A DNA stretch of 64,000 nt from Gluconobacter cerevisiae (GTDB taxonomy: Bacteria; Pseudomonadota; Alphaproteobacteria; Acetobacterales; Acetobacteraceae), in contig NZ_JABCQO010000003.1 of assembly GCF_015244675.1 (NCBI RefSeq), positions 248,001 to 312,000 of the forward strand. The letters run 5' to 3'. Below, one piece after another: positions 14,173 to 62,024 of this stretch (the first letter of the stretch is position 1; every line of letters begins with the position of its first letter). The notes below the pieces were generated by a model, which had not been told where the DNA came from, ran no database searches, and saw only the letters and a program-made list of their open reading frames with translations. The translations under genes and the position numbers were made by a program.

Positions 14173-14178
14173 ATGAAT

Positions 14179-15535: not shown

Positions 15536-15561
15536 AACCTGTCCAACCCTCCACGCTGGTC

Positions 15562-29526: not shown

Positions 29527-29663
<137 letters not shown>

Positions 29664-31361: not shown

Positions 31362-34300
31362 TCATGCGGCAAGTTCTCTGGCGACGGCCGCAAAATATGC
31401 GGGGTACGCTTGGAGGGCAAGGATGGTCGCTTGATGCCGACAAGCCGTACGAACACCCGCGCGGTCGCGAACACCGTTCCATAGTACAGACAAGAAATTG
31501 GCTACGACACGGTCTGCGAAACCTGCTTCAGTGAAGGCAATCGCGGACGGATCGGTCAAACCGTATTTAATTTGCTTTTGGAGATTCGAGAGACCCGCGA
31601 AGAGGGCTTCATCCGTGCCTTCGGCCAAGTCCGCCAGTGAGGCAGTGATCATCGCCAGATCGTAAGCGAACGCGCCCTCGCATAGGGCAACTGCATCTTC
31701 AACCGCTGCCCGGTCGCCGCTCACCCTGATATCGAGGGCGGTCATGCGTTGATGGATATGATGGTAGGGACGGCCAGCGACCCAATCGGCCAAGGCGTCC
31801 GGTAGAAAATCCGTGCTGGAAAGCGACCGGATCGAGGATGACGAGTTCCATGAAATGATTTTTGCTGCCACATAAGGCAGGAGCTGATCGGCTTCGATTG
31901 CCGCCCTAAGTGGGGCGGCATTTTCATTAAGCCAAGTCTGTAGTTCAGCTACGATCGCCGGAGGAAGCGGAGACTTCCGAATAACAGCGCGTTGATCGCC
32001 GTCAGCGTTCGCCGCGATGGCAGCGGCAATCATCTGAAACACTGCGACGAGTACCTGTTTGGTTTCCTGGCCTGCGAGGTGATAGGCCAGAGTGCGGGCG
32101 GCCAGTTCGGCCACTCGGTCCTGACTCTCTTCTTCCAGAAATGTCATGTTCGCCACGAGAAAGGCGGCGATGGCTTGGATAGCTCTCGCACGCCCCTCGA
32201 TAAATTTGCGAAACTCGACCGCGCTGATGTTCGGTTGAAGAGCGAGCGCTTCGTTCACGACCTGCTCGATCCGCGCAGCGTCGGCAAAGGCGAGATCGAG
32301 CCACTGAGGGAGCATGGGCTGGACGAGCGGTGGCGCACCCTTCTGACGCTGCTCATAATCCGAGAATAGCGCGAGGATGCTGCTTCTGGTCGGCTCCGAC
32401 TTACTGGCATCGACGAGCTCTTTCGCCTCATCCCAACGCCACCTTTGCCGAAATTCATTCCGCTGATCGAAGATCGACGGTGTGGAGAAAATCACGCTCC
32501 CTTCGGTGTGCATACCAGCACGACCGGCGCGGCCCATCAAATTTTGAAAGTCGCGGACCATGATACGCTCTGCACCTTGCCGGGTCGATGTCACGATCAG
32601 ATACTTGAGCGGGAAGTTAACCCCTTGCGCCAATGTCGAGGTGCACACGACAAACTTGGCGAGCCCCTCTTTCATAGCGTGCTCGATGCAAAGCCGGAGA
32701 CCCTGCGGTGTGTCGGCATGGTGCGCGAATATCCCAAGAGCAGCAGCCGTCGTCGCACTGGCGGCGACACCGAGATGCTGTTGGGACAAGGAGCTGATCT
32801 TGCCAACTTCAGCCACGTCGGAAACGTCGATTGGGCGGGGGAAACCAGCGCCCCTGTTGTAGATATCGACTGCACGACGACAGATTTTCGTCACGCTGTC
32901 TTTCCTGCCGCAAAAGACTGCCACGCTGCCATTTGCGACGACGTGCAAGCCAAGGAATAGACCGACTTCACCGCCATCCGACTTTGCCGGAAAGCGCTGA
33001 ACCTTTCTCTCCCTTCCGAGAAGATCCAGTTCGATGTCGTCGATGATCCGTGGTACCCAGAATTCGGTTTCCTCGGGGGCGGTTGGGCTTACATATTGCA
33101 GCCGACCTCTGGCATCCTGCCAGCTCGCAAAAGCGATGCTTTTCGATGTCGGTAACAACCCCGCGCCGTCAATAACAGCTTCGGCGTCACCAACCAACCA
33201 ATCTGCAACCGCACTGGCGTTGCCAATGACTGCAGAGATCAGAATGACCTGCGTTGCCTCAGGTAGCGTCAGTTTCAGCGATGTCAGCAGAAGCTCGTAG
33301 GTGGGACCGCGCGTTAGGCCGTCAAACTGATGTCCCTCGTCGTAAATGACGAGGCCGATGCGCTCGACCAGCTCCGGTGCGCGTCGCAGCATGTAAAGCA
33401 GCTTCTCAGGCGTGACGATCAGGACTGTATTTACGGCCATTATCTCTTCCAGTTGAATGTCAAACTGGAAGGAATCCGATGCCTCATCGAGCTTGATCGG
33501 CTCTCCGGCAAAAGCGGCGGCGAGGTCGCCCCGGATGTCATGGCAAAGCGACCGATAGGGCGCAACGATGATCGCCAGTGAAGCACGCTGTGACAGGAAC
33601 GCTGAACGGATAATCAGTTCGGTCGCACGGGTTTTGCCTGCACTGGTCGGCATCTGGATGACCGCAGATCTACCTTGGAGCAGCCCGGCCGCTGCAATTC
33701 TTTGTTGCGCGGGCCATAATTCGAAGGGGAAATGAGCCTTTGCCAGCGCCGGCCGCCAGGCATCGGCGTCGAGGCCGGATGCACTAGGGAGAATTGATCG
33801 AGAGGCGTTGCGTAGTTTCGTTGCGCAGATCGCTGCAGCCAAGTCGGCATACAGAAGCTCTCTCGGGGAGCCGTTCTGATAAGTGCCGTTGCGAAGTCGA
33901 TCGGTTGCGGCGGAGACCAAATCGACCCCAGAATCGAAAGTCGTAAATCCGGCCATTGATGCCAGAACAGTGTTTAGATTTGGCGAGATGCCGGGAATCT
34001 GGGAAAACTCATTTTGGAGGAGGTGGTAGGTCAAAAGACCCAGGCCGCCCGCCAACTCTGGGGATGGGGTCTCCATTTTCTTGATGATTACGGCTGCGTT
34101 CCCGATGCTGCCATTTAGATAATAGGCCGATGCGCAGAGCAGCGAAAATTCAACCGAGATTGTCTCGTCGAGTTTTGCGTTCAAGTAAGCGTCGAAGAAA
34201 GTGGAAGCAAACCGTAGGCCCTCCCTGACAGTCAGGTCGACGCCGGTCCAACTGGTCGGAAGAAGGTCCGCGTCGAACGCCGCGATGGTTTCCGCCTCTC

Positions 34301-34478
34301 GAAATTCATTAGCTGTAACGGAAGCCACATCGCCGAGGATGCCCACCGCTAGGTCGAAAAGTATGGAGGGGTCGCGATAGAGCTGTATGAAATATTCAGG
34401 CGCAACCCGAAACTCGTACATCTTTGCGCGTGCGCGCGTGGCGGAGAGAACGCGATTGGCGGTTGCTTCAGGCTTCAT
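31362..34478 (-). CDS. hamB: Hachiman defence helicase HamB
   Basis: A 1038-aa superfamily 2 (Ski2-like) helicase. Motifs in order: Walker A MPTSAGKTRATELI near 286, DEGH box (VIYDEGHQFDG) near 377, LISAVIGNASAVADWL, and motif VI QNLMGRAGRAGM near 646. An N-terminal helical region of about 250 residues and a long C-terminal region lie outside the helicase core. The start MKPEATANR (34478) has AAGGG upstream and overlaps the hamA stop by 11 bp; the frame extends to 34502. HamB with an upstream DUF1837 nuclease is the Hachiman arrangement. Confidence 0.82.
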   Translation of the reverse strand: MKPEATANRVLSATRARAKMYEFRVAPEYFIQLYRDPSILFDLAVGILGDVASVTANEFREAETIAAFDADLLPTSWTGVDLTVREGLRFASTFFDAYLNAKLDETISVEFSLLCASAYYLNGSIGNAAVIIKKMETPSPELAGGLGLLTYHLLQNEFSQIPGISPNLNTVLASMAGFTTFDSGVDLVSAATDRLRNGTYQNGSPRELLYADLAAAICATKLRNASRSILPSASGLDADAWRPALAKAHFPFELWPAQQRIAAAGLLQGRSAVIQMPTSAGKTRATELIIRSAFLSQRASLAIIVAPYRSLCHDIRGDLAAAFAGEPIKLDEASDSFQFDIQLEEIMAVNTVLIVTPEKLLYMLRRAPELVERIGLVIYDEGHQFDGLTRGPTYELLLTSLKLTLPEATQVILISAVIGNASAVADWLVGDAEAVIDGAGLLPTSKSIAFASWQDARGRLQYVSPTAPEETEFWVPRIIDDIELDLLGRERKVQRFPAKSDGGEVGLFLGLHVVANGSVAVFCGRKDSVTKICRRAVDIYNRGAGFPRPIDVSDVAEVGKISSLSQQHLGVAASATTAAALGIFAHHADTPQGLRLCIEHAMKEGLAKFVVCTSTLAQGVNFPLKYLIVTSTRQGAERIMVRDFQNLMGRAGRAGMHTEGSVIFSTPSIFDQRNEFRQRWRWDEAKELVDASKSEPTRSSILALFSDYEQRQKGAPPLVQPMLPQWLDLAFADAARIEQVVNEALALQPNISAVEFRKFIEGRARAIQAIAAFLVANMTFLEEESQDRVAELAARTLAYHLAGQETKQVLVAVFQMIAAAIAANADGDQRAVIRKSPLPPAIVAELQTWLNENAAPLRAAIEADQLLPYVAAKIISWNSSSSIRSLSSTDFLPDALADWVAGRPYHHIHQRMTALDIRVSGDRAAVEDAVALCEGAFAYDLAMITASLADLAEGTDEALFAGLSNLQKQIKYGLTDPSAIAFTEAGFADRVVANFLSVLWNGVRDRAGVRTACRHQATILALQAYPAYFAAVARELAA

Positions 34479-35283
34479 TGGCTGCCCTTTCGTAAAGGGC
34501 ATGAACTAGCTTCATGAGCGACGGACCACGGATCACAAGCAAGCGTAGATTGTCCTCGTTCTGATGACCTGTGGTGTTTGTCTCTTCCAGATTTGTCGTC
34601 GCATAAACATCAACATCCAGAACCGCTGCTGCGCCATTGACCCTTTTGAACGGCCGATCGGACTCATTCTGAAACCGCTGGATCCAGCTGGCCTCGACAG
34701 CCTGGCCGCGCACGAGCAACCTTTGTTTCATGGCATTGAGCGTCATGGCTTCACGCAAGTGATCCTTCATGGAGTCCGTGACGGCATCCTGCAGTCGGTT
34801 CTTGTCGGTCGCCGACAGCCCTGACTTGGATTCCACTACGAACAATTCGTCATTGGCGTGGTCACCCTGCGGATGAACATATCTGATACCGACTATATCC
34901 GAGCCCTGAGTAGAGCCCTGCCGGTTCCAGCGATCTTGATATCGCAGTTGCCGAGGACACCAGTAGCCGAGGATAAATTGTATGAAGTCAGCAACCAGGA
35001 TTTCACCGAAGTCGCCTGAGCGCAGACTTGGGCCAGGTGACGTCTTAGCGTCGGGGAACAGAATCGTCTGCAGAAAATCCGCGTGGCTTTTGCCCGTGCC
35101 CGCCGCCATCGCGGCAAGGTCCGAGTCTACACAATAGTGCTGGCGGAAGTGCGTGGCCCATTCTGACAGGATGGCCTCATCCCCTTCGGGATTGAATTTC
35201 CATATCTCGATTTCCCGACCGCAGGCGCTCAGGCGTCTTTCACCTGTGTCCTTCAGCCAATTAATATGAGGCGGTATAGCCAA
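34468..35283 (-). CDS. hamA: Hachiman nuclease HamA (DUF1837)
   Basis: A 271-aa protein with a DUF1837-type PD-(D/E)XK core: SLRSGDFGEILVADFIQF, GSDIVGIRYVHP (Asp), and FVVESKSGLS (Glu and Lys near 151-153). In described Hachiman systems HamA is the nuclease held inactive by HamB, and the equivalent E-x-K is needed for defence. hamA overlaps hamB by 11 bp. A 9-bp inverted repeat lies about 65-110 bp upstream. Confidence 0.8.
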   Translation of the reverse strand: MAIPPHINWLKDTGERRLSACGREIEIWKFNPEGDEAILSEWATHFRQHYCVDSDLAAMAAGTGKSHADFLQTILFPDAKTSPGPSLRSGDFGEILVADFIQFILGYWCPRQLRYQDRWNRQGSTQGSDIVGIRYVHPQGDHANDELFVVESKSGLSATDKNRLQDAVTDSMKDHLREAMTLNAMKQRLLVRGQAVEASWIQRFQNESDRPFKRVNGAAAVLDVDVYATTNLEETNTTGHQNEDNLRLLVIRGPSLMKLVHALYERAANEA

Positions 35284-35460: not shown

Positions 35461-38400
35461 CTACTTGCGAACTCTAAATGAACCACTTTTGCGCATAGCA
35501 TTTTGTCCGTCTAAAAACGGAATCTCACAGTTGGTGCGATCATCAAGGAACGTCTCCGCGAAGTATTTCAAAAGCCGCGAATCACGCATTACCTTGAGAT
35601 CACCGGGAAGGTGGTTGATCACCTCCTGGCTAGCCAACACCACCAGCTTGGCGCGGGGCCGCGAGGCCATGACGTTGAAACGATTGAGCGATAGGAGGAA
35701 CTCGTCCTCGTCAGCGATCGCGTCAGGATCACCCAGCGCATAACTGGCTATGATCACATCACGCTGCTGCCCTTGGAAGCGCTCGACGGTGTTTACCGCG
35801 CTGCGAATGAGCCTGCTGTCGTCACCGAGCGGTTCGAAGAGGGACTGGAGCTTGGATACCACCAGTGCCTTGTGGGCGCGGTGCGGCGTCACAACGCCGA
35901 CAGCGTCGGTCCAGAAGCTCTTCGCGTCATGCAGCCCTGCGCTAGTGGCCTGCGGATCCCCTTCGAGGCCAGCGCCGAGATGGCTCCGAAGTATCCAGAG
36001 CAGCGCCGCCACAGTCTGAGCTTCGAAATCGTTCCACTGGCTGCTGCATCCTTCCGGATAAATAAAAGCGGATAGCGGCTGATTAGGCTCCAGTAGCCGA
36101 GCGAGTTCGGCACCGAAAGCAAGACTTCCGGGCCAGTTCGCAGGTGCTATCGCAGGGAGTGGCGTCTCTAACCGCATACGCAGATCCGGAAACCGAGCGG
36201 TAAGGCTGGCCGGATAACCGGCGAAGCGCCCGAAGCCGACTATCATGCTGTTCGAACGGTAGTTCTCCAATAGATCTTTCGAGGCCACCCCTCGATGGGC
36301 CGCGACGAAGTCGTAAACGGATCCAACGAGCTTTTCGAGACCGAGAGGGGGCTGCACTGCCTGGATAGGCGGTAGCTGCTTGGGGTCGCCGACGACGATT
36401 GTCGAGCCGCCTTCGGCAAGCGGTGCCAGCGCAAGCACGGAGCTCGCCATGTCCATTTGGGACGCCTCGTCGATCAGGACCACGTCAAAGAGCGACTGGG
36501 CCACGTTGCCCTTTAGGCCGGCAAATTTAGTTACCTGCTGAGGCGGCGCCGACACAATCGTGGACATCGTCCTGGCGACCAGCAGGTCGTGCAGGTCGGG
36601 GATGCCGGGCGCATCTTTATCATTAAGGAGATTGGCGCCCACCGGCAGACCCGGAGCATCCTCCCTCGAATCGGAACGCAGACGAGCCAGTCGCACCTTG
36701 CCGGTCGTCGCCTCTCCGAGTGAGACTATCTGGTAAAAGGTGCGCAGCACGACATTGTCGATTGCATCGTAGGTATTGCTCGTCACGAGGATCCGGATAG
36801 CTCGGCCAGAAGCGTGAGCTTCTAACAGCAACCCTAGCAGGATGGCGCGCAGCGTCTGCGACTTCCCCGTTCCGGGCGGCCCCCAAATAAGAGCGACGCG
36901 TTTCTCCATCGCTTCGCGCCATGCGTCCCACTGGCTGTCATTGAGCTTGGTATCGAGAGATTCCAGCGTCGCTCGTGTCGCTGCAGCATTTCTGCCCGTA
37001 GGAGCGAGCGCCGTCTTTTTTGTATCCCAAAGCACCTCTGCTACGGGCACATGCGCGGTCGCAGTCTTGGGCGCTGCCTTCCCGATGACGTTGGCTGTCG
37101 GCGTTCCAGCACTCATTGCCAGGGGCGGATTGCCGATCGCCTTAAGCACGGTTTCGAGCCTTCTCGTCAAGAAGTCCTGAACCTGGCGGTCGAGGACGAC
37201 ATCACGGCGTAGGTCAAGCGTTGCTTCAATCTGTCGCAGATAGGTATCGACCTCTGGCTTGAAGGATACGGCGACGAGCCGGGCATCGCGGTCGATGGCG
37301 AGCAGTTGCGTCCCCGTCAGAGATCCGGCGAAATCGAACTCCCGGATCCAACCCGGTAGATCCACAGCGAGCGGTACGCCGCCGGTGAACTCGCCGACCC
37401 GGCGCGAATAGAAGTCCGGTATGGAAGCGGGCGATAGAGCGCAGAGGAAGTCGCGCTCCTCGAACTTGGCTTCGCGGGATCCTTCAGCTAGCGTATAAAT
37501 CCGTACCCCGGGATGCAGCGTGATCCCGAGCGTCGATGCCGCGGTAGCTAGATCGGCACCGGTGAGTTCCACTTCCAGTCGTGCGGCGAGATACTTGGCC
37601 TCCCGCTCGTGCACAGGCATTGCCAGGGAAATAGCGTGTTCTAGTCTGACGACTTGGGCATTGAGGCAAGCGAAAGCATACCAGATCTGCCCGTCTGCAC
37701 TTACCCTCTGCAGAGATGCAGGTGGCTTGATCTCCGTGATCTTCGGCGCACGACTACGCAATTGGCCCTGGAGGTCGAGGCGCAGGCGCCACATGATGGA
37801 ATGAAGGGCATGCAGCTTCATCGTCACCGTCGCACGCAACTGCGTGATCTGCTGGCTCCATGGACGAGGTTGCCCCATCTTGGTCCAAATCTCGTGCGCC
37901 CGCTCCGACGGGACCTGATCGGACAACGGATCTTCAAAGATCACCGGCACGCGGAATTCAAATGGCGTTCCGCCAGCCTTTGGCGGAGGTGCATAGGTGC
38001 GCGCTAGTCCGAGCAACGAGTAGTAGTGCGGAATGGGTGCCGCCACCAGCGCCTGGATCGCGTTGCGGACGATTGTTATGGGCGCATTTGCCGAGCGCAA
38101 CTTTGCGTTCTCTATAATCTGTTCTGGCGGAAACAACCACGCCAGCTTCTTGAGATTGCCGTCGGCGAGGACGTGCTGGAGGTTGCGGCCAATTACGCGT
38201 AGCATGTGTTCGTAAGTGACGCTGTCCCAGATGTAGATCTGGACCGTCGCGTTGGCCTTGACCTTCGTCGCATCGGAGAGCGCCTTTTCGACATACGCGA
38301 GAAAACTCATCAGTTCGCGAGTTTCGCTCTGGACACTGCGCGTGTCGTTCACGAAGACCTGTGCCTCGACCCTCTCGCGCTGACCGTTAATATTTGAGTG

Positions 38401-39666
38401 GCCACCGACGCCAAAGGCCAGAGTCAGGCCGCTACCGACATCGAAATCGGCCGATAGATAGAGATTGAGATCCGCCCAGTCCGGAATGACGGCCGAAGTG
38501 CCCGAGCCGGCGGGAATATCGCTGATACCGGTCGCAAGCGAGTGCGCCCGACCCGCAACTACTGTCCGTGTGGCTCGCAGTTTTGGATGGCAGTTGAACA
38601 CCGCGTCGTCGGCCGGCAGCGGAGCCAGCAAGCCGGTGGTACTGATGTTGAGGTTGCCAAGTGCGCGCCGAGCACCGCGGGGCAGAAAGGCGATGGAACT
38701 GAGATGCCCTTGCGCCTTGGCCATGGGCATGCAGTGATCCGAATGTTCCGCAGTGGTCGCGTTCCACACGTAGCCGAGATACTCGCAGCCGCTGCAGCCG
38801 GTGCCCACATGCCAGTCGAGATCCTTCCATGGACTGGCTAGCGCTTGAGGAAGCTCCACGACGAAGAAGTGCCTGAGTCGCGGCGAGAAGACGTCGATCT
38901 CGAGCGTCTCAATGTCCTCGTTTAGCGCGGTCGCCAATTCGTTCGCGGTCGGCGTAGTACCCGCTTTCAGTCGATCGGCCTTGAGCCGGATGATCGTCGC
39001 TGCGTCATGCGATCCCGGCCAGATGGCTGCCTCGGCGACGACCGCGTACCGGTCGGCATAACCGTTGTCGGTAAGCCAGCCCGCCAACGCCAAAGAGTAG
39101 TAGGTGATCTCCGCAAAGTACGACGCGCTCGGCTCGGCAGTCATCTTAATGTCAATAACGCGCAAACCGATTCGACCATCTCCATCGTGGACGGAGCCGT
39201 CTGCCTCTACGATCCGGCTCACCTTTGCGGGGGAAAACACCTGAATCAAGTCAGGCACCAGCTTCGCAAAGCCTAGCGAATGCGTGACAACCAAAGCGTC
39301 GATGCCGATAGCCGTCTGAAAGCCTAGGCCAACATCGAACTCGGGCCTCACTAGAAACGCACCAGGCTGCGCCCGGGGCATCACGTTCTTTAGTTTTTGG
39401 TCCTGGAACTCTGTTCCGGTCACGGTGCCTATGACTGACGCACTACCGAAAGTGTTCTGCAGATCTTTCAGCTTGTCCTGCTCCCAGCGGCTGCCTTCCT
39501 GAGTCAGTGCCGCCATTCCGGTGCGAGCGACTGTCTTCGGCGGCATGCCCTGCGCATCACGCTCCTGCTGATACTGCTTGTTTTCCGGCGAAAGGAGAAG
39601 ACGAAGCTGACGAGGACAATCAGTCCTGAAGTAATTGCTGACAACACGCTTACTGAGATACGGCAC
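35461..39666 (-). CDS. RecB/Dna2-like nuclease fused to superfamily 1 helicase
   Basis: A 1401-aa protein. N-terminal nuclease: Cys17 (CPRQL), a metal Asp in AIGIDALVV and the D-x-K pair in RVIDIKMTAEPS near 177, then CSGCEY and DHC at about 290-309, together giving the four cysteines of a Dna2/AddB-type iron-sulfur nuclease. C-terminal helicase of the Upf1/Dna2 class: WGPPGTGKSQTLRA near 932, LIDEASQMD near 1067, GDPKQLPPIQ, and NTVERFQGQQRDVII. GTG start with GGGGGAAG upstream. It lies 33 bp after the methyltransferase, so they form an operon. Confidence 0.85.
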   Translation of the reverse strand: MPYLSKRVVSNYFRTDCPRQLRLLLSPENKQYQQERDAQGMPPKTVARTGMAALTQEGSRWEQDKLKDLQNTFGSASVIGTVTGTEFQDQKLKNVMPRAQPGAFLVRPEFDVGLGFQTAIGIDALVVTHSLGFAKLVPDLIQVFSPAKVSRIVEADGSVHDGDGRIGLRVIDIKMTAEPSASYFAEITYYSLALAGWLTDNGYADRYAVVAEAAIWPGSHDAATIIRLKADRLKAGTTPTANELATALNEDIETLEIDVFSPRLRHFFVVELPQALASPWKDLDWHVGTGCSGCEYLGYVWNATTAEHSDHCMPMAKAQGHLSSIAFLPRGARRALGNLNISTTGLLAPLPADDAVFNCHPKLRATRTVVAGRAHSLATGISDIPAGSGTSAVIPDWADLNLYLSADFDVGSGLTLAFGVGGHSNINGQRERVEAQVFVNDTRSVQSETRELMSFLAYVEKALSDATKVKANATVQIYIWDSVTYEHMLRVIGRNLQHVLADGNLKKLAWLFPPEQIIENAKLRSANAPITIVRNAIQALVAAPIPHYYSLLGLARTYAPPPKAGGTPFEFRVPVIFEDPLSDQVPSERAHEIWTKMGQPRPWSQQITQLRATVTMKLHALHSIMWRLRLDLQGQLRSRAPKITEIKPPASLQRVSADGQIWYAFACLNAQVVRLEHAISLAMPVHEREAKYLAARLEVELTGADLATAASTLGITLHPGVRIYTLAEGSREAKFEERDFLCALSPASIPDFYSRRVGEFTGGVPLAVDLPGWIREFDFAGSLTGTQLLAIDRDARLVAVSFKPEVDTYLRQIEATLDLRRDVVLDRQVQDFLTRRLETVLKAIGNPPLAMSAGTPTANVIGKAAPKTATAHVPVAEVLWDTKKTALAPTGRNAAATRATLESLDTKLNDSQWDAWREAMEKRVALIWGPPGTGKSQTLRAILLGLLLEAHASGRAIRILVTSNTYDAIDNVVLRTFYQIVSLGEATTGKVRLARLRSDSREDAPGLPVGANLLNDKDAPGIPDLHDLLVARTMSTIVSAPPQQVTKFAGLKGNVAQSLFDVVLIDEASQMDMASSVLALAPLAEGGSTIVVGDPKQLPPIQAVQPPLGLEKLVGSVYDFVAAHRGVASKDLLENYRSNSMIVGFGRFAGYPASLTARFPDLRMRLETPLPAIAPANWPGSLAFGAELARLLEPNQPLSAFIYPEGCSSQWNDFEAQTVAALLWILRSHLGAGLEGDPQATSAGLHDAKSFWTDAVGVVTPHRAHKALVVSKLQSLFEPLGDDSRLIRSAVNTVERFQGQQRDVIIASYALGDPDAIADEDEFLLSLNRFNVMASRPRAKLVVLASQEVINHLPGDLKVMRDSRLLKYFAETFLDDRTNCEIPFLDGQNAMRKSGSFRVRK

Positions 39667-39699: not shown

Positions 39700-41757
39700 T
39701 CAACGCAGAGCGTCCTCAAGCTTAATCGGCTCCGATCGTCCCCATTTTCGCCTCGGAGCCAATGCCTTACCGACAAGAGCGGCTCTACGTAGCGCGGCCG
39801 CGTCGATAGCGTTGAAAGGCAGCGCTAGGTCGCCGTATCGTTTGAGCCACGCCGTGACCTCTGTTTCGACCTCGGCCAATTCCTGCTCGCAGACCTTTAG
39901 GACGGGCGTAGGCCCGCCACCGTGCCGAAGGACGAAGACCGCGTCCCAGAGCCCGCGCTCACCCTGAGCATGCAGGCCATTGCCAGCTTCGCCGGGCATG
40001 GGCAGAACGCTTGTGATCCGCAAATCAGTGCGGGCTATTGCCTCCGCGAGCGCCTGCCAGGCTGGAGCATCGGTATGCCGGTATGAGAATGCGACGATGC
40101 CGTTACGCTTTAGCACCCGAGCGATTTCTTCAAAGGCCTGACCCAGTCCGTCCGTGTAGCGTTCGACACTCCCAGCACGTGACCTATTGGCGACGAGGCT
40201 ATTGGCCAGGATGTCCTGTTGCTCGCGTGCGTCGAGCACCTCGAGGCATTGTAGCCAAGGGCCAAAGAAGCGCGCGAGTTCGGAATAGGCGATGTTGTCG
40301 AAATAAGGCGGATCCGTCATGACGACGTCGATGGATCTGTTCGGGAGAAACGCGAGATTGCCAGCTGTCCCCATGTGAATTTGGTTCTTCCGCCGACGGG
40401 TCCGCGTGGGCACTTCAATGAAGCCCTTTGCTCCCGTCGGCTCCTTGGGACTACGCGCGTAGGCGGCTGCGGCAGTGAGCTTGCGGACAGCGTTGGGAAA
40501 TGTACCGCGCCCCGCCCGCTCGATCCATGGATTGAGCTCGACCGGACGTTGGATATGCCGGAACGCTCGGAGCGAAAACAGCGGCGTGAGACGCCGCCAG
40601 CCTCCAGCGTAGGACGCCATCATGCAATTCGTGGTCAGATGATCGCTGAATGCCATCGCGACCGCGCTGCGGAGAGGATGATCAAGAAGCGAGATCTCTT
40701 TGGCCAGCAGGCCGAGATGCAGCAGCTGCCGGGCATTGAAAAGGTCGCGCCAGCGACGATAACCATAGGCGCTCAACCGTTCGTCCGACCAGCCCGACGT
40801 ATCTATCTCGTCGTCCGGAATCAACACCTCTCCTGCCAGCTCTGCATTCGCGAGCGCCACTTTTGCACGCTCATACTGGCGCACGTCCTCGTCAACGGCT
40901 TTACGGAAGGTGCGCTCCGACATGGGCACCATGCGCATGCTGACGTCGCCCGCGATCGTTTCCACCGCGAAAAGCCGCCAGCGCGGAGCGCCATCACGCC
41001 GTCCATACTCAATGAGCTGATCGCCGTGCTCGCAGTGAGGGCATTTCGCCCGACCCCGCAGAACAGTTCCGTGATCGCAATCGGTACGGTGGCCGCAGCT
41101 ATCGCATTCGAATGACGCAGTGCGCGCAGGCAGATCGTGGATCGTGCCACAGGCGGAGCAGAAAGCGTGGCGCGTAGTGCCGTCGTCAGCAAGGACGTGA
41201 TTGGGATGCGCATCGAAATGACTTCCGCAGCCAGCACACTCTACGACCTGCACCCAGAAGTGGTGCAACACTTGGTCGCCGTGCCTGACGTGAAACTCTG
41301 CAAGTCGGCTCCCGACCCGTTCCTTCAGGTCGGCGAGGATAGGGCTCAAATCCGGTAGATCAGCCGCCCCCAACTCCAGGCGGCTGACTGCGCAGGCAAC
41401 AGGATCTACGTCACAGCCGTATGCTGTGGCACCGAGCCGGGATGCCTCGAAAACCGACGTACCGCCACCGACGAAAGGGTCCAGCACCTTCAAACCGGTA
41501 AGATCTGCGCCTCCGTAATAAAGTTCCCCAAAATCTGCGTCCGGCTCCGACGTGACACCGATGAGCAAGCTGCGGAACACCGATCCTAGTCTGCGCGCGA
41601 ACCATTTGTGTGCGGTATAGATCGGGCGAGGCCGCCGCCCTTCGCGAATAGCAAACGCGACGAGTTGCTCTATCGGAAGCTGCCCAGCCTCCACGAGAGA
41701 TAGCCGATTGATCCGTACGCTTTTCCGCGTTTTCTTTTCTTTTTGCTTTAGGGTCAT
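39700..41757 (-). CDS. Zn-ribbon adenine-specific DNA methyltransferase (DUF1156-type)
   Basis: A 685-aa N6-adenine methyltransferase of the COG1743/DUF1156 kind. The N-terminus has YTAHKWFARRLGSVF and SAM motif I LDPFVGGGTSVFEA near 94. A cysteine-rich insert follows (CAGCGSHFD, CSACG, CDSCG, CPHCEHG, roughly residues 180-260), likely zinc ribbons. The catalytic DPPYFDNIAYSEL is near 480. The ATG at 41757 has GGAG six bases upstream. It is the first gene of an operon with the nuclease-helicase and, after a gap, hamAB. Confidence 0.85.
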   Translation of the reverse strand: MTLKQKEKKTRKSVRINRLSLVEAGQLPIEQLVAFAIREGRRPRPIYTAHKWFARRLGSVFRSLLIGVTSEPDADFGELYYGGADLTGLKVLDPFVGGGTSVFEASRLGATAYGCDVDPVACAVSRLELGAADLPDLSPILADLKERVGSRLAEFHVRHGDQVLHHFWVQVVECAGCGSHFDAHPNHVLADDGTTRHAFCSACGTIHDLPARTASFECDSCGHRTDCDHGTVLRGRAKCPHCEHGDQLIEYGRRDGAPRWRLFAVETIAGDVSMRMVPMSERTFRKAVDEDVRQYERAKVALANAELAGEVLIPDDEIDTSGWSDERLSAYGYRRWRDLFNARQLLHLGLLAKEISLLDHPLRSAVAMAFSDHLTTNCMMASYAGGWRRLTPLFSLRAFRHIQRPVELNPWIERAGRGTFPNAVRKLTAAAAYARSPKEPTGAKGFIEVPTRTRRRKNQIHMGTAGNLAFLPNRSIDVVMTDPPYFDNIAYSELARFFGPWLQCLEVLDAREQQDILANSLVANRSRAGSVERYTDGLGQAFEEIARVLKRNGIVAFSYRHTDAPAWQALAEAIARTDLRITSVLPMPGEAGNGLHAQGERGLWDAVFVLRHGGGPTPVLKVCEQELAEVETEVTAWLKRYGDLALPFNAIDAAALRRAALVGKALAPRRKWGRSEPIKLEDALR

Positions 41758-42573: not shown

Positions 42574-42653
42574 TTCTTCTGTTCAATTGGTAAAATAGTT
42601 GCTTGCTCCTAACCTTCGTATTATTTGTGGACGCAGATAGAGCGGAGGCTGAG

Positions 42654-43709
42654 TTGGCTTTTTTTCATGATGACGAAATTGCGACCCTTCACATCGAGAA
42701 TGTAATCTTGCACGTTGTCGGGGACGAAGAATTCAATCCCGAAACAATGCGGATAGTTGAACATGCTGATTTCTTCGTCGAGCGCATTCGCAATACTGAT
42801 GTAGCTTCAGTGTTCGAGTTTCAGGCGGATTCGCAGACAAAGGCTCAGCTTGAGCGTATGGCCCGCGATGAGGACGAATTCGAAACCGGTGGCCAGGCAC
42901 TTGCTCGCGAATTTTCTCGTTTCCATCTCGGAAGCAGCCGTGATGGCGCCTTCTTCATTTTTGAATTAAGGACCGCTAATCCCGATGTTCGCATCTACAG
43001 TTTGATTAAATATGATTATCAGCAGGTAATAGAGCAACAACAGCAGAATGATGGTACCAATCTCTTACGCCTCATCGTGCAGGCCTTCGTGGCTGACAAA
43101 AGTGCGATTCAAAAGTCAGCTCTGGTGCGGGTCGTCAATGGCGTGGCAGAAATGGCGATTGCGGCAAAGGATCGTGTGAAGCAAGCGCCGGAAATCGGGG
43201 ATTATTTTGCAAATTATTTGCACGTTGTCCGCGTACGTGACGATGAGCAGTTAAATCGCAAGGCGATCGAAGCAGTGGGCAATGCATTGAAAGAGCTTAA
43301 GGACATTTTGCCTGATTGTGATGTCCCAAGGGCCTTCCGGGAGGCAAAGGTAGCCTTGAACAATCGGCAACGTATCAATCCGGCTGCTCTGGAAGACGCT
43401 GTGCTAGCGGCGGCGGGCAATCCCGAGGATGAACGGATTATCACAAGGATTCAAAAATGCGTTCAGCGTAAAGTCAAGTCCGCCAAACTCGGAGGTCTTG
43501 AATTTTCTCCGAACCGCGACCTTCTCCGTAGTCCGGCGATCCGAAAGGTTCGAACAACTGAGGGCGTTTTGCTTTTTTATCCAGATCGCGTAGGCGACGC
43601 AAATGTTGAACGTTTGCGGACGGCGGATGGCGGCGAAGTGATCACAATCACAACGAGGCATGTTGAGGAGGATGGTATTGTCCGTCGAGAGCCTCGCAGC
43701 GCGTCTTGA
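42654..43709 (+). CDS. NdpA-like (nucleoid-associated protein family) defence-island protein
   Basis: 351 aa from TTG 42654, chosen because GGAGG lies 5 bp upstream and the product then begins with EIATLHIENVILHVVG, much as NdpA proteins begin. The FFIFELRTANPDVRIYSLIKY strand-helix region, cited in part, and PEIGDYFANYLHVVRV resemble the NdpA (YejK, 37-kDa nucleoid-associated) fold, but the match is by pattern only. The gene overlaps the next by about 32 bp. The pair may act together against phage; this is inference from location. Confidence 0.5.
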   Translation: MAFFHDDEIATLHIENVILHVVGDEEFNPETMRIVEHADFFVERIRNTDVASVFEFQADSQTKAQLERMARDEDEFETGGQALAREFSRFHLGSSRDGAFFIFELRTANPDVRIYSLIKYDYQQVIEQQQQNDGTNLLRLIVQAFVADKSAIQKSALVRVVNGVAEMAIAAKDRVKQAPEIGDYFANYLHVVRVRDDEQLNRKAIEAVGNALKELKDILPDCDVPRAFREAKVALNNRQRINPAALEDAVLAAAGNPEDERIITRIQKCVQRKVKSAKLGGLEFSPNRDLLRSPAIRKVRTTEGVLLFYPDRVGDANVERLRTADGGEVITITTRHVEEDGIVRREPRSAS

Positions 43710-45156
43710 TGCGCTTGATGCCGACGGGGCCTTTGTTTCTGAGAGCGAGGCCATCGTCAGCATTTCAAATCTGAGCGCTGCAATCGCACGCGAGATCGGA
43801 ACGCTTGCCTTAACTTTGGGTTGGGACACGGTGACCTTCGATGGGGCAGGAAACGACTGGGCGCTTGAAGATCTTGATGAGTCTTTTGCGCCGTTCAGAG
43901 TCGATCTCGAAAAACCACTCGGGCCGGAAGGTGTACTGCGCCTACTGACTAATGTTGGTTTCGCCTCTTGGTTAGAGCGGGATGTGTCCAGTGTGCATTG
44001 GCAGGTGGCTCACCTCACGACTAAAATTGTCGCAGTAGGCGCTTGTTTTACGCCTTGGGATAACGAGACTACGGAGTTTACGCCTAGTCTGGGCTTGCGC
44101 GGACCACGAACCCTTGTTCGTGAGTTTGCTGGTCAGCGAGCCGTGCCGGCCACGCTAGCGCGCTGGCTCCTGCGTGATGTCGATACTCTGTCACTCCATG
44201 ATCCTGCGGCTAGGCTATGGGCAGAGCATGCATCGCGCATGCTGCTTCTGTCGCTGCCGGATGAGTTTGACGCAGATCGCGGATCACTCCGGTTCAGAGG
44301 GCCACCACGACTTGAGTTGAGCTATCCTATAATAGGGGAGCCCTTCGCGACGATACTTGGATTGCCAGGAATTAAGGATCTGCAGGCGGCGTTGGCGTGG
44401 GTATTTGAGATCGAGCGCGAAAGCGAGATGCGCCATATCTTGCTCGCGACCGAACTTGCTCGATGTGGCGGGACAGTTGATGAGGCGCCGGAGTTCCTGC
44501 GCGATTATCTTGGCGCGGCATTGGAAGGCGCAAAAACTGCCTATCAGGTCCAACTCGCCGGCATGAGTAGTGACGCTCTCAAGACGCTGGTAGAACTGCG
44601 CAAGAGTGTCACCGATGAAACGGCGAAAGTATCCGATGCAACGCGTCAGGTTATCACAGCGGTTGCGAGCGCGCTGGCAGTTGGTGCCGGGCTGATCGCG
44701 ACACGAGTGACGACAAACGCGAGCCCGTTACTGATCATACTTGTGATGGTGATGGCGGGAGCCTATGTTGCGATTACCATTATCTCTGGCGTAATGTTTG
44801 CCCATTTACAGCGCGAAGTGCGTAAAGAGTGGCAACCCAGACTCTACAGGTTTCTATCGCAACCGGACTATGAAGCGCTGGTTGCCGGCCCCGCTCGTAC
44901 GGCAGAGAAGGCGCTCTGGTACTCCTCTATTTTGGGTACGCTTGCAATCATTGTGATGGCCTGCGCGATCTTCCTGACCCCTCCAGCATTAAGCGAACGC
45001 AAAGAAGATGCACAGATCCCGAAGGATGTGTCGGCACCGACATTGGTTGAAGCCCACACGCCGCCAAAGAACAGAACGATACCGGTTAGCGGCGCCCCGG
45101 CGAATGATCCGGTGCCAGCGCCATCCAGAGTAAATTCCGCCCACGAACATAAATAG
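43678..45156 (+). CDS. Membrane-anchored partner protein of unknown function
   Basis: About 492 aa from the TTG at 43678, which has GAGGAGG six bases upstream; an ATG at 43672 would leave no spacing. The first 300 residues are soluble and not recognised. A short coiled region (LKTLVELRKSVTDETAKV) leads into three hydrophobic helices (ITAVASALAVGAGLIA, LLIILVMVMAGAYVAITII, ILGTLAIIVMACAIFLTPP), and the tail is Pro-rich and hydrophilic. It resembles other defence effectors with a cytosolic sensor and C-terminal membrane helices. Confidence 0.65.
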   Translation: MSVESLAARLDALDADGAFVSESEAIVSISNLSAAIAREIGTLALTLGWDTVTFDGAGNDWALEDLDESFAPFRVDLEKPLGPEGVLRLLTNVGFASWLERDVSSVHWQVAHLTTKIVAVGACFTPWDNETTEFTPSLGLRGPRTLVREFAGQRAVPATLARWLLRDVDTLSLHDPAARLWAEHASRMLLLSLPDEFDADRGSLRFRGPPRLELSYPIIGEPFATILGLPGIKDLQAALAWVFEIERESEMRHILLATELARCGGTVDEAPEFLRDYLGAALEGAKTAYQVQLAGMSSDALKTLVELRKSVTDETAKVSDATRQVITAVASALAVGAGLIATRVTTNASPLLIILVMVMAGAYVAITIISGVMFAHLQREVRKEWQPRLYRFLSQPDYEALVAGPARTAEKALWYSSILGTLAIIVMACAIFLTPPALSERKEDAQIPKDVSAPTLVEAHTPPKNRTIPVSGAPANDPVPAPSRVNSAHEHK

Positions 45157-45530
45157 GCCACCCACCGATCGCGGGCATAGCAGCTGCCATAAACTTCAAG
45201 CGTTATGATCCTAAGCTTTCAACTGGCCACTTTTCATTTCGAACGCACTTGAACGCAGCAGGTCCGCTTACGCCTTCATGGGGGACATCCAAGCAGTGGC
45301 GACCATTGGCCGAAAGGCGACATTGTTAAGCGGACCCCGATAAGCAGAGTTTGAGACGAATCAGGCATTCGTAGTTCTTTCCGCGGACGACCGTTACCGG
45401 TCAGACAGGACATTTGGACGATTACCCAGGGTGCACTTGAGTTAAATGCTGGATCGCAGCACTAAGAGCTTGTGATCCGTCACCTTGAATTACTGCCCTT
45501 TGGCTTAGAGCTTTGGTAAAGGTAGATTTC
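45157..45530. other. Gene-free stretch with no clear feature
   Basis: About 370 bp without a supportable gene or hairpin. It separates the membrane protein from the decayed exonuclease. Confidence 0.35.
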
Positions 45531-46025
45531 ATGAGCGAAGCCGCACCTAATTTGGCAGATTTGGCCGACATTCTGAGCGCGAGCAACGATTATCGCGTCC
45601 AGCGACGTCTTAAATCGCGCTCGAATATTACGCAGCCTGACGGAACGCCAACAAAGACTGCGATTCTCGTAGATGTAGAGACGACGGGCCTAGATCTTCA
45701 GAACGATGAGATAATCGAGCTGGCTATGATCTCTTTCACTTACTCTCTCGATGGAAGAATTTTCGAAATTGGCCAGACGTTTCAGCATTTTCAAGAGCCC
45801 AGTCGCCCAATTTCGGCCGAGATCACCCGGATCACCAATGCCATGGTGGCCGACCATAAGATTGATATTGCAGAGGTTGCTACGTTTGTCAGTTCTGCCG
45901 CTCTGGTGATCGCTCACAATGCTGGGTTTGATCGTCGCTTTGCGTAGCGGTTGAACGCTCACTGGTTCCTGACACTTGCGGGTGCACGCGAAAAGTTCGA
46001 GGCTTGGCGCAGAGACTACAATTAG
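45531..46025 (+). pseudogene. DnaQ-like 3'-5' exonuclease, broken by a stop codon
   Basis: From MSEAAPNLADL the frame encodes the exonuclease ExoI motif ILVDVETTGLDLQ and ExoII AHNAGFDRRFA, then hits TAG at 45945-45947. In the same frame the sequence continues as RLNAHWFLTLA and KFEAWRRDYN to a second stop at 46023, the kind of sequence intact relatives have after FDRRF. The ExoIII region and the rest of the domain are missing. So it is a 138-aa truncated product at most, most likely inactive. Confidence 0.7.
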
Positions 46026-50004: not shown

Positions 50005-50479
50005 GATGCCCTCCAAATCGTTCAAATCTTCTTGTCGCCGCTTCGTGCGAGTGTGTCTGAAGAAGATTACCTCGCCAAGCTTTCAAGCCAAGGCTTAGTT
50101 TTTGCTGGCCCGCGCACGACAGCAGGCCAGCCAGTCACCAGATCGGAGACGGCCTCTCTACCTAACTTGAGGAGGGTGACGGGAAAACGCTCGGAAGCCC
50201 GCTTCGGCCAGGAGCTGTCCTTCATTGGTCCAATCGTAAATGGCGCGACTTAGTCCCGATCTCGAGGATTGATCCAAGTGAGGGTTAAGTCCGCTATTGG
50301 AGAAGGCAATGGGGCAGCACAACGGCCGGGTTTGGCGCGAAGCTGTCGCGAAGATCGTTCATATGAACTTCCGATCGGCTGATCATCCTGCCCAATAGCA
50401 GACGTTCCGCTTTCCTGAAGGGTTTCGGGCGCCGCGAGGCGTACGAAAGTCTGGGAAGACCGAACCCGCGACACCGGGA
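50005..50479. other. Gene-free stretch upstream of the STAND gene
   Basis: About 475 bp with no supportable gene. It contains the promoter region of the STAND ATPase on the minus strand and runs into the non-coding 3' end of the IS91-family element. Confidence 0.35.
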
Positions 50480-51911: not shown

Positions 51912-51930
51912 GACCGCCCCTGCTCCGGGA

Positions 51931-52836: not shown

Positions 52837-52989
52837 CATCATCCGGCTCCTTCTGGTGGGAAGAAGCCAGAGTGCTTGACCAGATCAGGACAGTTCCAAA
52901 TAAAACAGATCGCTCACGCCGTGGTGACAGACCTGCACACCGCACCAATCCCGCGCAGCGGGTTCGTTCTCCCCCCCAAAGCTGACAAA

Positions 52990-59202: not shown

Positions 59203-60495
59203 TCAGGCGTCTGGATCTCCGATGTCAGAGTTTTTCCAGGTGAAGAGCGGGGCGCTGTCAGGATCGGGACGCTGAGGCTTTGCGATTGCCTCAGTGGATT
59301 GCCCTGCACAGAAGCGTTCCCAGGCATGCATCATCTCGGAACGCCTGTTGAAGAGATCCCCCCGGCGATAGGCGGCCTCAACCTTGTCACCGATGGCATG
59401 GGCCAACGCCATTTCGGCGACCTCCCTCGGAAAGTCGGTTTCTTCGGCCGCCCAGTCCCGGAAGCTGGAGCGCAAACCATGGATCGTCACATCCTTCGTG
59501 CCTGCGGCCTGATGGAGGGCCTTGGAGACCGCGACATCGCTCAACGGCGAACCGACCCGGCCACCAGGAAAGACGAAACTGTCCTCACCGAGACTGGATC
59601 TCAGGGTCTGGACTTTATACAGCAGCGCCATCGCTCCGTTCGTCAGGGGCACACGATGCTCCCGCCCGGCCTTCATCCGCTCGGCCGGGATGGTCCAGAT
59701 CTGTTTCTTCAGATCGATTTCCGACCACAGGGCCTTTCGGACCTCGCCAGACCGGGTTGCGGTCAGGCAGACGAACCGTGCGGCCAGAGCTCCCACACCA
59801 TGCTCGGCGCTGAGCCGGCTGTAGACCGGCGGGAGGTCGCGATAGGGCAAGGCGGCATGGTGCACCACCTTCGTGACTGCCGTGGGTTTGGGGAGGATGT
59901 TGGCCAGATGCCCCCGCCAGCGGGCCGGGTTCTCCCCCTCGCGCCAGTGGTGGCTCTGCGCATAGTCCAGAATACGCTCCATCCGTCCACGCAGCCGTGT
60001 TGCGGTTTCGGTCGTGCTCTCCCAGATCGGTCGCAGGACGGCGAGAACGTCCTCTGTCTGGACGCTGCCAATCGGTTTCTGACCGAGGATGGGAGAGACA
60101 TGCCGCTCCAGAGAGCTGCGCCACATGGGCGCCGAGCGCGGATCTTTCCAGCCCGGCGCCTGTTCGGTGATGTACTGCTCGGCAACCTGCGCGAAGGTGC
60201 GCTCCTGAACATCAGGTCCCTTCTGTCGGGCTTTTTCTTCCAGGGGGTCGATCCCCTGCAGAAGCAGGCGCCGGTTCTCGGTCGCCTGGAGCCGGGCATC
60301 GGCCAGAGAAATATCCCGGGCGGGACCGAGTCCCATTTCCCGTCTTTTGCCGGTCTCAGGGCTTTTGTAGCGGAAAGTCCAGGCCCGGGTGTCGCCGCGG
60401 ACAGTGATCCATAGATTTCCGCCATCACCATAGACCCCGTCTTTGAGGGAGGCGACCTTGCGGGCATTCATCTGGTTCGGCGGAAGCTTGCTCAT
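59203..60495 (-). CDS. P4-type tyrosine integrase of the island
   Basis: 430 aa. It has the P4-family N-terminal arm-binding domain (LKDGVYGDGGNLWITV, EMGLGPARDISLADAR), a core-binding domain near 100-190, and the catalytic domain with Arg in FVCLTATRSGEVRKALW, HGLRSSFRDWA (HxLR) and the tyrosine near AHAIGDKVEAAYRRGD. Transcribed toward the island interior, with its 5' end 151 bp from attR, the typical position for an integrase acting on tRNA-Ser. Confidence 0.93.
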   Translation of the reverse strand: MSKLPPNQMNARKVASLKDGVYGDGGNLWITVRGDTRAWTFRYKSPETGKRREMGLGPARDISLADARLQATENRRLLLQGIDPLEEKARQKGPDVQERTFAQVAEQYITEQAPGWKDPRSAPMWRSSLERHVSPILGQKPIGSVQTEDVLAVLRPIWESTTETATRLRGRMERILDYAQSHHWREGENPARWRGHLANILPKPTAVTKVVHHAALPYRDLPPVYSRLSAEHGVGALAARFVCLTATRSGEVRKALWSEIDLKKQIWTIPAERMKAGREHRVPLTNGAMALLYKVQTLRSSLGEDSFVFPGGRVGSPLSDVAVSKALHQAAGTKDVTIHGLRSSFRDWAAEETDFPREVAEMALAHAIGDKVEAAYRRGDLFNRRSEMMHAWERFCAGQSTEAIAKPQRPDPDSAPLFTWKNSDIGDPDA

Positions 60496-60645: not shown

Positions 60646-60661
60646 CACCCTCTCCGCCAGA
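60646..60661 (+). repeat. attR: right 16-bp direct repeat of the island
   Basis: CACCCTCTCCGCCAGA, identical to the 3' end of tRNA-Ser at 29603-29618. No tRNA surrounds this copy. Confidence 0.85.
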
Positions 60662-60773
60662 AGATATATTCTATGACATTCCATGATGCGCATCCGGCCT
60701 TGAATTCGGCGGGTTTCCGACGATTTTAACGATCCAGAGCGTACTGTGGCAATCCTTGAAGCGCATGCAATGC

Positions 60774-60812
60774 GGGGGTAGTTATGGGGGTATCAGAATG
60801 GTCCTGGGGGTA
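60774..60812 (+). repeat. Three GGGGGTA repeats before the second integrase
   Basis: GGGGGTA at 60774, 60786 and 60806, spaced 12 and 20 bp, ending just before the ATG at 60816. The last copy also acts as the G-rich ribosome binding site. They may be arm sites of the second integrase. Confidence 0.5.
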
Positions 60813-60815
60813 TCG

Positions 60816-62024
60816 ATGCTGACAGATGTCCAGCTCCGGCGCCTTGCCCCGAAAGACAAGGCTTACAAGCTTGCAGACGCAGGTGGTCTTTTTATTCTCG
60901 TCCAGCCGAACGGATCGCGCCTCTGGCGTATGAAGTATCGCTTCGGTGGCAAGGAGAAACTCCTTGCATTTGGCACTTATCCCGAAGTGACGCTCGCAAA
61001 AGCCAGAGACGCCCGGGATCAGGCACGTAGCGAGCTCCGTGCCGGTCGGGATCCTTCATTGACCCGCAAACAGCGTCAGGCAGAAGCCCGACAGACAGAT
61101 CGCCAACTCAGAAACGTTGGAGAAATCTGGATCGCTTCCCAGGCCTCGCGCTGGACCCCGCGCCACCGGAAAAACGTCGAAACAAGCTTGGAGCGGTTCG
61201 TCTGGCCTGATCTGGGCTCTCTCAATCTTGACGATATCACTCCGCCAATGGTGCTCGCGACCATCAGAAAGATCGAAGCCGGAAGAGCCAGGGAAACGGC
61301 ACGCCGGATACGTCAGAGACTGAGTGCGATTTTCCTGTTCGGCATTGCCCACGGTCTGGGCACACAGGATCCCGCAGCGGTCATCAAGGGGGCACTCGTT
61401 CCGCTGAAAAAAGGTCGTCAGCCCGCCATCACCGATCTGGGGGAACTGCGCGATCTGTTCCGTCAGGTTGAAGCCATTCCGGCTCACCCTGTGACGTTAC
61501 TGGCGCTCCGCTTTCTCGCCCTGACCTCTGTACGTCCCGGCGAGGTCCATGCCATGGGATGGCACGAACTTTCAGAGGATCGGTCCGTCTGGCTGATTCC
61601 GGCAGAGCGCATGAAGATGCGTCGGGAACATGAAGTCCCCCCTTCCCGACAGGCGCGCGAGATTCTGGAGGCAGTTTTCCTGCTGACAAGCAAAGGGCCG
61701 CTCGTTTTCCCAAACAACCGATGGGCGCATCGCCCGATGAGTGAGAACGCGTTCAGTTATCTTCTTCAGCGGTCAGGATATTCTGGGCGCCAGGTTCCGC
61801 ACAGCTTTCGGGCGTCATTCTCGTCAATCATGAACGAACGCTACCCGTCCGACAGGGCCATCATCGACCTCATGCTGGCGCATCAGAACAAGGATCGGGT
61901 GGAAGCAGCCTATAATCGTGCTCTTCATCGTGAGCGAAGAAAAGAACTCGCTCAGATCTGCGCCGATCTTCTTATGGAGCACGCTTCACCCCCAGCCGAT
62001 TTTCTCGGTCACCAAAAGCGATAG
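60816..62024 (+). CDS. Second P4-type tyrosine integrase, outside attR
   Basis: 402 aa from ATG 60816 with GGGGG six bases upstream. N-terminal arm-binding domain (LADAGGLFILVQPNGSRLWR, AFGTYPEVTLAKARDAR), catalytic Arg in ALTSVRPGEVHAMGW, HSFRASFSSIMNERY (HxFR), and tyrosine near QNKDRVEAAYNRALHRE. It differs clearly in sequence from the first integrase and lies 155 bp to the right of attR, pointing away from it. It appears intact and suggests a second, perhaps decayed, element in tandem. Confidence 0.9.
   Translation: MLTDVQLRRLAPKDKAYKLADAGGLFILVQPNGSRLWRMKYRFGGKEKLLAFGTYPEVTLAKARDARDQARSELRAGRDPSLTRKQRQAEARQTDRQLRNVGEIWIASQASRWTPRHRKNVETSLERFVWPDLGSLNLDDITPPMVLATIRKIEAGRARETARRIRQRLSAIFLFGIAHGLGTQDPAAVIKGALVPLKKGRQPAITDLGELRDLFRQVEAIPAHPVTLLALRFLALTSVRPGEVHAMGWHELSEDRSVWLIPAERMKMRREHEVPPSRQAREILEAVFLLTSKGPLVFPNNRWAHRPMSENAFSYLLQRSGYSGRQVPHSFRASFSSIMNERYPSDRAIIDLMLAHQNKDRVEAAYNRALHRERRKELAQICADLLMEHASPPADFLGHQKR

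Follow-up and report, generated by a model that had tools for sequence, protein, structure and literature searches.

Does a DNA methyltransferase gene with a giant nuclease-helicase gene directly behind it encode a restriction system in Gluconobacter cerevisiae, and if so is that system already known under a name? The two genes, here called MT and NH, lie in the 64,000-nucleotide stretch of DNA that we analysed (the window). A first-pass annotation had described them as a zinc-ribbon methylase paired with a 1401-aa protein, in a possibly undescribed restriction-like arrangement. We examined the anatomy of both proteins, their pairing in other genomes, their likeness to named systems and the genomic island around them.

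Architecture of MT and NH

Both genes are on the minus strand (Table 1). The open reading frame of MT runs from a TTG at 41790 to 39700, and an ATG at 41757, seven bases past an AAGGAG site, gives a protein of 685 aa; this ATG rather than the TTG is the likely start. The interval in the first-pass annotation, 39700-41757, spans MT only. Along the protein the DPFVGGGT motif comes first, then four CxxC pairs beginning at 174, 200, 218 and 239, then DPPY. In all five aligned methyltransferases of this kind (5/5) the motif I residues D93, P94, F95, G97, G98, G99 and T100, the cysteines C200, C203, C239 and C242 and the whole of DPPY are invariant. DPPY is usual for N6-adenine enzymes, and by this rule MT is predicted to be an N6-adenine methyltransferase. 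In PADLOC, MT scores highest against a Type II methyltransferase model (91.4 bits). Models for DUF1156-associated enzymes match as well, PADLOC DUF1156_MTase with 75.6 bits and NCBIfam DUF1156_antiphage with 102.8 bits, the latter far under its curated cut-off of 1000, and the Pfam DUF1156 domain is not among the Pfam matches of MT. By its profile matches MT is thus a relative of DUF1156-associated methyltransferases, and the label "DUF1156-type" that it had been given is only loosely right.

Table 1. Features of the MT-NH locus and its surroundings, in window coordinates
Feature	Position	Strand	Basis
MT: zinc-ribbon DNA methyltransferase, 685 aa	39700..41757	-	Pfam/PADLOC/NCBIfam profile matches and motifs
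MT motif I DPFVGGGT (AdoMet binding), aa 93-100	41458..41481	-	sequence
MT zinc-ribbon stretch, four CxxC pairs, aa 174-242	41032..41238	-	sequence
MT motif IV DPPY, aa 482-485	40303..40314	-	sequence
NH: Dna2-like nuclease-helicase, 1401 aa, GTG start	35461..39666	-	ORF, Pfam, PADLOC, profile matches, residue conservation
NH nuclease domain, ~aa 1-325: probable Fe-S Cas4/Dna2-type PD-(D/E)xK	38692..39666	-	conserved residues and structure model
NH central region, ~aa 326-890	36997..38691	-	no Pfam match; mostly aligns with the rest of the 771-aa DpdJ neighbour
NH SF1 helicase, ~aa 891-1401	35464..36996	-	Pfam and PDB profile matches, motifs
HamA of Hachiman (neighbour, not part of the pair)	34468..35283	-	PADLOC PDLC00161, 353 bits, 3-271 of 271
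HamB of Hachiman (neighbour, not part of the pair)	31362..34502	-	PADLOC PDLC00188, 1175 bits, 1-1036 of 1037
Left 16-bp direct repeat, mostly 3' end of tRNA-Ser, putative attachment site	29603..29618	+	exact repeat
Right 16-bp direct repeat, between two integrase genes	60646..60661	+	exact repeat
Tyrosine integrase, island right end	59203..60495	-	Pfam Phage_integrase, Phage_int_M, Arm-DNA-bind_3
Second tyrosine integrase, just outside the right repeat	60756..62024	+	Pfam Phage_integrase, Phage_int_M, Arm-DNA-bind_3

NH begins with GTG at 39666, 33 bp behind MT, and ends at 35461, so that the 1401-aa protein is present where it had been placed. Its helicase part matches Pfam AAA_11/AAA_12, carries the motifs GPPGTGKS (929), DEASQ (1066), GDPKQLPP (1093), NYRSN (1135), FQGQQ (1297) and SRPRAK (1335), and has PDB profile matches to SMUBP-2, NAM7/UPF1 and DNA2, by which the C-terminal part of NH is classed as a UPF1/Dna2-type SF1 helicase. 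The Pfam scan gave no match at all in the nuclease part and no target-recognition domain anywhere in NH. Conservation of the nuclease part is strict: the Fe-S cysteines C17, C291, C294 and C312 together with D139 and D172-x-K174 are identical in 26/26 intact homologues, as are all 17 catalytic and Fe-S positions that were checked (these seven in the nuclease domain and ten further ones). A structure model of aa 1-329 (pLDDT 88.9, pTM 0.90) has Cas4 as its best PDB match (probability 1.00, E 1.1e-3, TM 0.36 by query and 0.51 by target), followed by AdnA, lambda exonuclease, MGME1, Dna2 and AddB at E 0.09 or worse, and three predicted viral proteins match it at E < 0.001; for a larger model, of aa 1-885, Foldseek returned nothing at E 0.001. 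Because the Cas4 match is modest and the other PDB matches are weak, an Fe-S Cas4/Dna2-type nuclease fold of the N-terminus is likely but not proven. Of the domain plan proposed earlier, the C-terminal SF1 helicase is therefore borne out by Pfam and PDB profiles, and the N-terminal iron-sulfur nuclease stands as a likely assignment.

Pairing of NH with methyltransferases in other genomes

NH homologues were collected from three sources. Species genomes, scanned with an NH profile of three sequences and two short peptide patterns, gave 19 loci, which are a sample of NH and no census; of 110 records in the plasmid set with any match, 3 have near full-length NH, and IMG/VR gave 10 NH loci, two of them identical. 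A search of viral_contigs with NH alone found nothing. The loci span Pseudomonadota, Bacteroidota, an Asgard MAG, plasmids and viral contigs, and 28 of them could be assessed for their neighbours, L025 being counted via a second contig of its genome and L057 being without the NH start. Left out of this count were L028 (NH N-terminus only, with a 606-aa N6_N4 methyltransferase about 1.8 kb away), L031 (both genes partial), L032 (contig ending inside NH), L059 (identical to L055) and L003, with NH in two frames and no such methyltransferase seen; L049 and L006-L009, being DpdJ-like, were not taken as NH loci. L003 is on the megaplasmid of Methylorubrum extorquens AM1, where the two reading frames of the homologue occupy 8965-13387.

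A DNA methyltransferase lies beside NH in 26 of the 28 loci, directly in 25 and with one ORF between in L029, so that homologues are far from being rarely adjacent. This count takes all kinds of methyltransferase together, and the kind found in the window accounts for 5/28. The partners comprise the window kind (5 of the 26 paired loci), a compact 370-aa kind (20) and a beta-class enzyme (1). The pairing of NH with a methylase described in the first-pass annotation thus recurs, the zinc-ribbon enzyme being one of at least three partner kinds.

All five methyltransferases of the window kind (the window, Billgrantia L014, Azospirillum L015, Chromobacterium L016 and the Heimdallarchaeota MAG L017) are directly 5' of NH and codirectional with it. 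The L017 enzyme is 24% identical to MT, and its placement in a Heimdallarchaeota MAG is possibly a binning error; a PIWI-like gene (5903-8095, plus strand) lies just upstream of the pair there. The 370-aa kind is arranged otherwise, in 19/20 loci tail-to-tail (3' of NH, on the opposite strand) and in one codirectionally (L054), and in 8 of the 19 tail-to-tail loci the ends of the two genes overlap by 4 bp. The tail-to-tail order excludes a simple shared operon in most relatives. In L056 a 359-aa methyltransferase directly 5' of NH has TSPPY and then DPFAG (42, 327), and by this motif order it is a beta-class enzyme. The two viral contigs L054 (8001-13399) and L056 (6919-12437) hold unusual arrangements of the pair. 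TSPPY, carried both by the 370-aa kind and by the L056 enzyme, goes with N4-cytosine methylation, and this rule would suggest such an activity for both. Two intact NH are without a partner, one in Thalassospira (L018) and one in Nostoc (L026). Against the two methyltransferase profiles both genomes yielded nothing beyond weak, short matches, and Pfam scans that covered 10/11 (L018) and 6/10 (L026) of the neighbouring ORFs of at least 200 aa showed no methyltransferase.

How far does this exceed chance? In 24 loci the methyltransferase profiles matched 22/46 ORFs next to NH and 1/225 farther ORFs (p 1e-18), a value that overstates the case, as the profiles derive from the genes adjacent to NH in loci that are themselves related, which makes the test partly circular; the two profiles also miss other methyltransferase kinds. 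An all-against-all comparison of ORFs from 20 loci found NH and its methyltransferase as shared families, besides a single further match between two loci. Once viral loci are included, 29 loci are linked by NH, 17 by the 370-aa kind and 5 by the window kind (counting the remote L028 match); other families, among them one Type III-like methylase, each connect 2 to 5 loci, for the most part viral contigs that are related but also L024 and L019. On the NH tree the methyltransferase kind changes 5 times against a shuffle mean of 8.6, a value as low being reached in 0/200 shuffles with some help from near-copies; support for the window-kind clade is weak (67/82). Distances between NH proteins and between their 370-aa methyltransferases are correlated (Mantel r 0.71, 0/9999 permutations, n=18 loci).

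The reverse scan of viral_contigs from the 370-aa kind yielded 18 loci and no new pair. Nine are on contigs with NH already known, two of these holding the same stretch, and are 53-67% identical (L085 40%). The other nine, mostly 31-44% identical, show no NH in the DNA examined; among these, the contigs of L084 and L091 stop shortly after the methyltransferase, and the L092 match covers just 43 residues. Because half of the loci show no NH, the methyltransferases linked to NH make up one part of a larger family that also has other partners. The window-kind profile matched 12 loci in viral_contigs, mostly by short or generic matches, with L093 a window-kind relative cut by the contig end and L096 a 370-aa-kind locus already known.

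The distribution of NH is sparse and scattered. It occurs in 1/26 genomes of the genus, only in the window's own genome in a class sample of 289 genomes, and in two of 398 genomes of a phylum sample, the window's own and that of L025, whose NH piece is identical; NH is 85% identical to an Azospirillum protein. Elsewhere the ORFs near NH include Type I and Type III-like restriction-modification, BREX, HamB-like and PIWI-like genes, which is a defence-island setting.

Comparison with named systems

In PADLOC, NCBIfam and Pfam scans the candidate of a known named system for the pair was rejected: it matches no named system of PADLOC or NCBIfam, and the first-pass annotation could put no name to it either. 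No model in either collection covers the whole of NH, whose matches there are confined to the helicase part, and we did not find the pair described as a named system in the open PMC literature.

The closest published description is that of Bad, a bacterial Dna2-like enzyme of 1245 aa from Geobacillus stearothermophilus (WP_053413574; Wilkinson et al. 2020, PMC7430649). As described there, Bad has an N-terminal RecB-type nuclease with a four-Cys iron staple, a long conserved central domain and a C-terminal SF1B helicase, a DNA methyltransferase (Type III Mod-like, m6A) adjoins it in all Geobacilli investigated, and the authors proposed a novel restriction enzyme. NH resembles this description in its four cysteines (C17, C291, C294 and C312 in 26/26), in the RecB-family residues D139 and D172-x-K174 (26/26, with a modest fold match), in its C-terminal UPF1/DNA2-type SF1 helicase and in having a methyltransferase next door (26/28), and between nuclease and helicase it too has a long conserved stretch. 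It differs in length, 1401 aa, and in its partners, which are zinc-ribbon, 370-aa or beta-class enzymes rather than Type III Mod-like ones. The present loci extend the hint given by Bad to other phyla and other methyltransferase kinds, the likeness of NH to Bad being one of published description. "Undescribed" was therefore too strong a word for the arrangement, since Bad with its neighbouring methyltransferase had been reported and proposed as a restriction enzyme in 2020 (PMC7430649), even though no named system matches.

A second likeness is to Dpd. A profile made from three sequences, a Skermanella 771-aa protein and its Caulobacter and Methylobacterium counterparts, aligns over almost its whole length (columns 3-766 of 773) with NH ~aa 2-850 (probability 99.4, E 1.2e-21). 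The 771-aa protein, without a PADLOC match itself, precedes DpdJ in the Skermanella Dpd locus, and the gene after it matches DpdJ over its whole length. The NH helicase in turn matches the start of DpdJ (PADLOC, 149 bits, only 44-476 of 2112). Because its nuclease and central part resemble the 771-aa protein and its helicase resembles the start of DpdJ, NH looks like those two proteins joined; it is without the remaining part of the 2113-aa DpdJ, which has been counted as a YprA-family helicase (PMC12458937), and its modification gene is a methyltransferase. A full Dpd system is ruled out, as no DpdA, DpdB or DpdC is among the PADLOC matches listed for nine window proteins and DpdJ is not matched at full length. 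On an unannotated phage-labelled faecal contig (MT835580, L049) two overlapping ORFs of 753 and 2134 aa (7986-16570, plus strand) resemble NH in its split, DpdJ-like form.

Type I and Type III restriction-modification enzymes combine a motor-nuclease subunit with a methyltransferase, as the pair appears to do. The motors of Type III enzymes are SF2. The Type I motor is also SF2 (PMC7430649), whereas NH has an SF1 motor with a probable Fe-S nuclease in front of it. Both DUF1156-DUF499 and BREX-related Type-1 systems have adenine methyltransferases related to MT; DUF1156 is reported in Type-1 BR systems (PMC12839542), and in L012 DUF499 is paired with a DUF1156-type methyltransferase. The Pfam matches of nine window proteins include no PglZ, BrxL or DUF499, and a DUF1156-DUF499 system is ruled out by the missing DUF499 together with the 102.8 bits of MT against the cut-off of 1000. 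For DISARM, no Drm model (DrmA, DrmB, DrmC) is among the PADLOC matches listed for the nine proteins. Mokosh MkoA, Hhe and PLuB contain large SF1 helicases whose helicase parts NH matches, but its best stretches against these models lie only within NH 894-1362, and the NCBIfam scores are far under cut-off (PLuB 80.3 of 999, Hhe 39.6 of 2000).

A restriction-modification-like reading and its alternatives

The sequences show the domain anatomy, catalytic residues that are intact, a conserved pairing with correlated divergence, and a patchy distribution, and we think it probable that MT and NH together make up an ATP-dependent restriction-modification-like system of two genes on a mobile island. 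We infer methylation, recognition, substrate, complex formation and restriction as follows. MT would methylate a specific sequence across the host genome, probably at N6-adenine, and would also provide sequence recognition. NH would be the restriction engine acting on DNA without the mark, recruited probably via MT or via its own central region; its SF1 motor would move along and unwind the unmarked DNA, and its Fe-S Cas4/Dna2-type nuclease would cut the resulting single strands. Because relatives swap the methyltransferase kind while NH stays, NH may be the constant engine and the methyltransferase the exchangeable part for specificity and self-marking. The earlier proposal that one gene marks self DNA and the other degrades or unwinds foreign DNA agrees with this domain anatomy, the activities being those that such sequences would predict. 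Counting against a restriction-modification reading are the two partnerless NH (L018 and L026), the reverse scan without a new pair, the near-copies and the weakly supported window-kind clade on the NH tree, the lack of a target-recognition domain among the Pfam matches of NH, and the tail-to-tail gene order of most relatives.

A further point concerns the substrate. Bad and Dna2 load at, and prefer, junctions of single- and double-stranded DNA (PMC7430649), so that a start of NH on intact duplex would need a further explanation. This preference would fit a pair that protects without site cutting of intact duplex, self being marked by MT while foreign DNA in replication is blocked or processed by NH at forks, flaps and single-strand gaps; DruE of Druantia III, described in a 2026 preprint as a helicase-nuclease engaging ssDNA-containing replication intermediates (PMC13192584), offers a parallel. 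We consider this rather unlikely: the nuclease residues intact in 26/26 NH suggest that cutting matters, on a substrate that they leave unspecified. Such a pair would not be BREX itself, because no PglZ or BrxL is found in the Pfam matches of the nine window proteins.

It is improbable that NH is instead a Dna2-kind enzyme of DNA repair or end processing and that the methyltransferase gene serves separately in defence or regulation and shares the same defence islands. The architecture of NH and its best PDB profile matches are indeed Dna2/UPF1-like, and two NH do without a methyltransferase partner, but the gene is rare and patchy (1/26 in the genus; 2/398 in the phylum sample, one being the window's genome), unlike a housekeeping repair gene, and shared islands alone hardly explain the adjacency, the matching distances and the recurrent tail-to-tail order across phyla.

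Genomic setting

The pair has a known defence system next to it. On the minus strand the order is MT, NH, HamA, HamB, all codirectional and contiguous, and the Hachiman system directly downstream of the pair, which the first-pass annotation had passed over (31362-35283), is complete, HamA and HamB both being covered by PADLOC models. Hachiman is probably a separate neighbour, independent of the pair. That all four genes are one extended Hachiman system, with NH products triggering HamAB, would suit their contiguous, codirectional order and the report that HamB senses DNA damage and frees HamA (PMC12278908), but it is very improbable: 177 bp separate the NH stop from the HamA start, HamA and HamB do not recur beside NH elsewhere except for a weakly HamB-like helicase in L016, the genomes of L014-L017 gave no full-length match to the window HamB, and the closest relatives of the HamAB DNA that were found, which are carried by Gemmobacter and Blastomonas plasmids, belong to other records than the three of the plasmid set that have near full-length NH.

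The pair and Hachiman lie within a putative 31-kb tRNA-Ser genomic island (29603-60661) bounded by the 16-bp repeats, two copies of which occurred in 0/100 shuffles. In a sister genome (G671) a similar repeat is present at the same tRNA-Ser, with an integrase-like gene about 22 kb off on one contig, and because of these this tRNA-Ser may be an integration hot spot. Other genes of this region are worth recording. Overlapping genes at 42603-45156 (plus strand) encode a weakly NA37-like protein (Pfam E 0.0016, under cut-off) together with one of 498 aa that has hydrophobic stretches in its C-terminal part, and are possibly another defence pair. A DEDDh exonuclease gene at 45513-45947 (plus strand) is apparently shortened, its 144 aa corresponding to positions 10-148 of a 307-position family. 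A 916-aa NB-ARC/STAND-type NTPase with TPR repeats is encoded inside the island at 47275-50025 (minus strand), and an IS91-type transposase adjoins another phage-type integrase at 50721-52842 (minus strand).

Implications

More speculatively, NH could be a modification-agnostic engine that is coupled to at least three methyltransferase kinds and, split in two, to the 7-deazaguanine marking of Dpd, reading self via its partner and not via a fixed site of its own; we put this forward tentatively. If it were true, NH would stand for a restriction enzyme class of its own, one in which the duplex is unwound and its strands are degraded. The link to Dpd suggests a shared cutting engine around which modification chemistries are swapped. 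Should the pair restrict, it would represent a restriction-modification class in which the motor is of Dna2 type and the nuclease precedes it, and it would help to answer what purpose bacterial Dna2-like enzymes serve, a question that the Bad paper leaves open (PMC7430649). The MT-NH pair is small and so directly testable. Since both genes recur side by side in distant microbes, our results point to a little-studied kind of restriction-modification defence.
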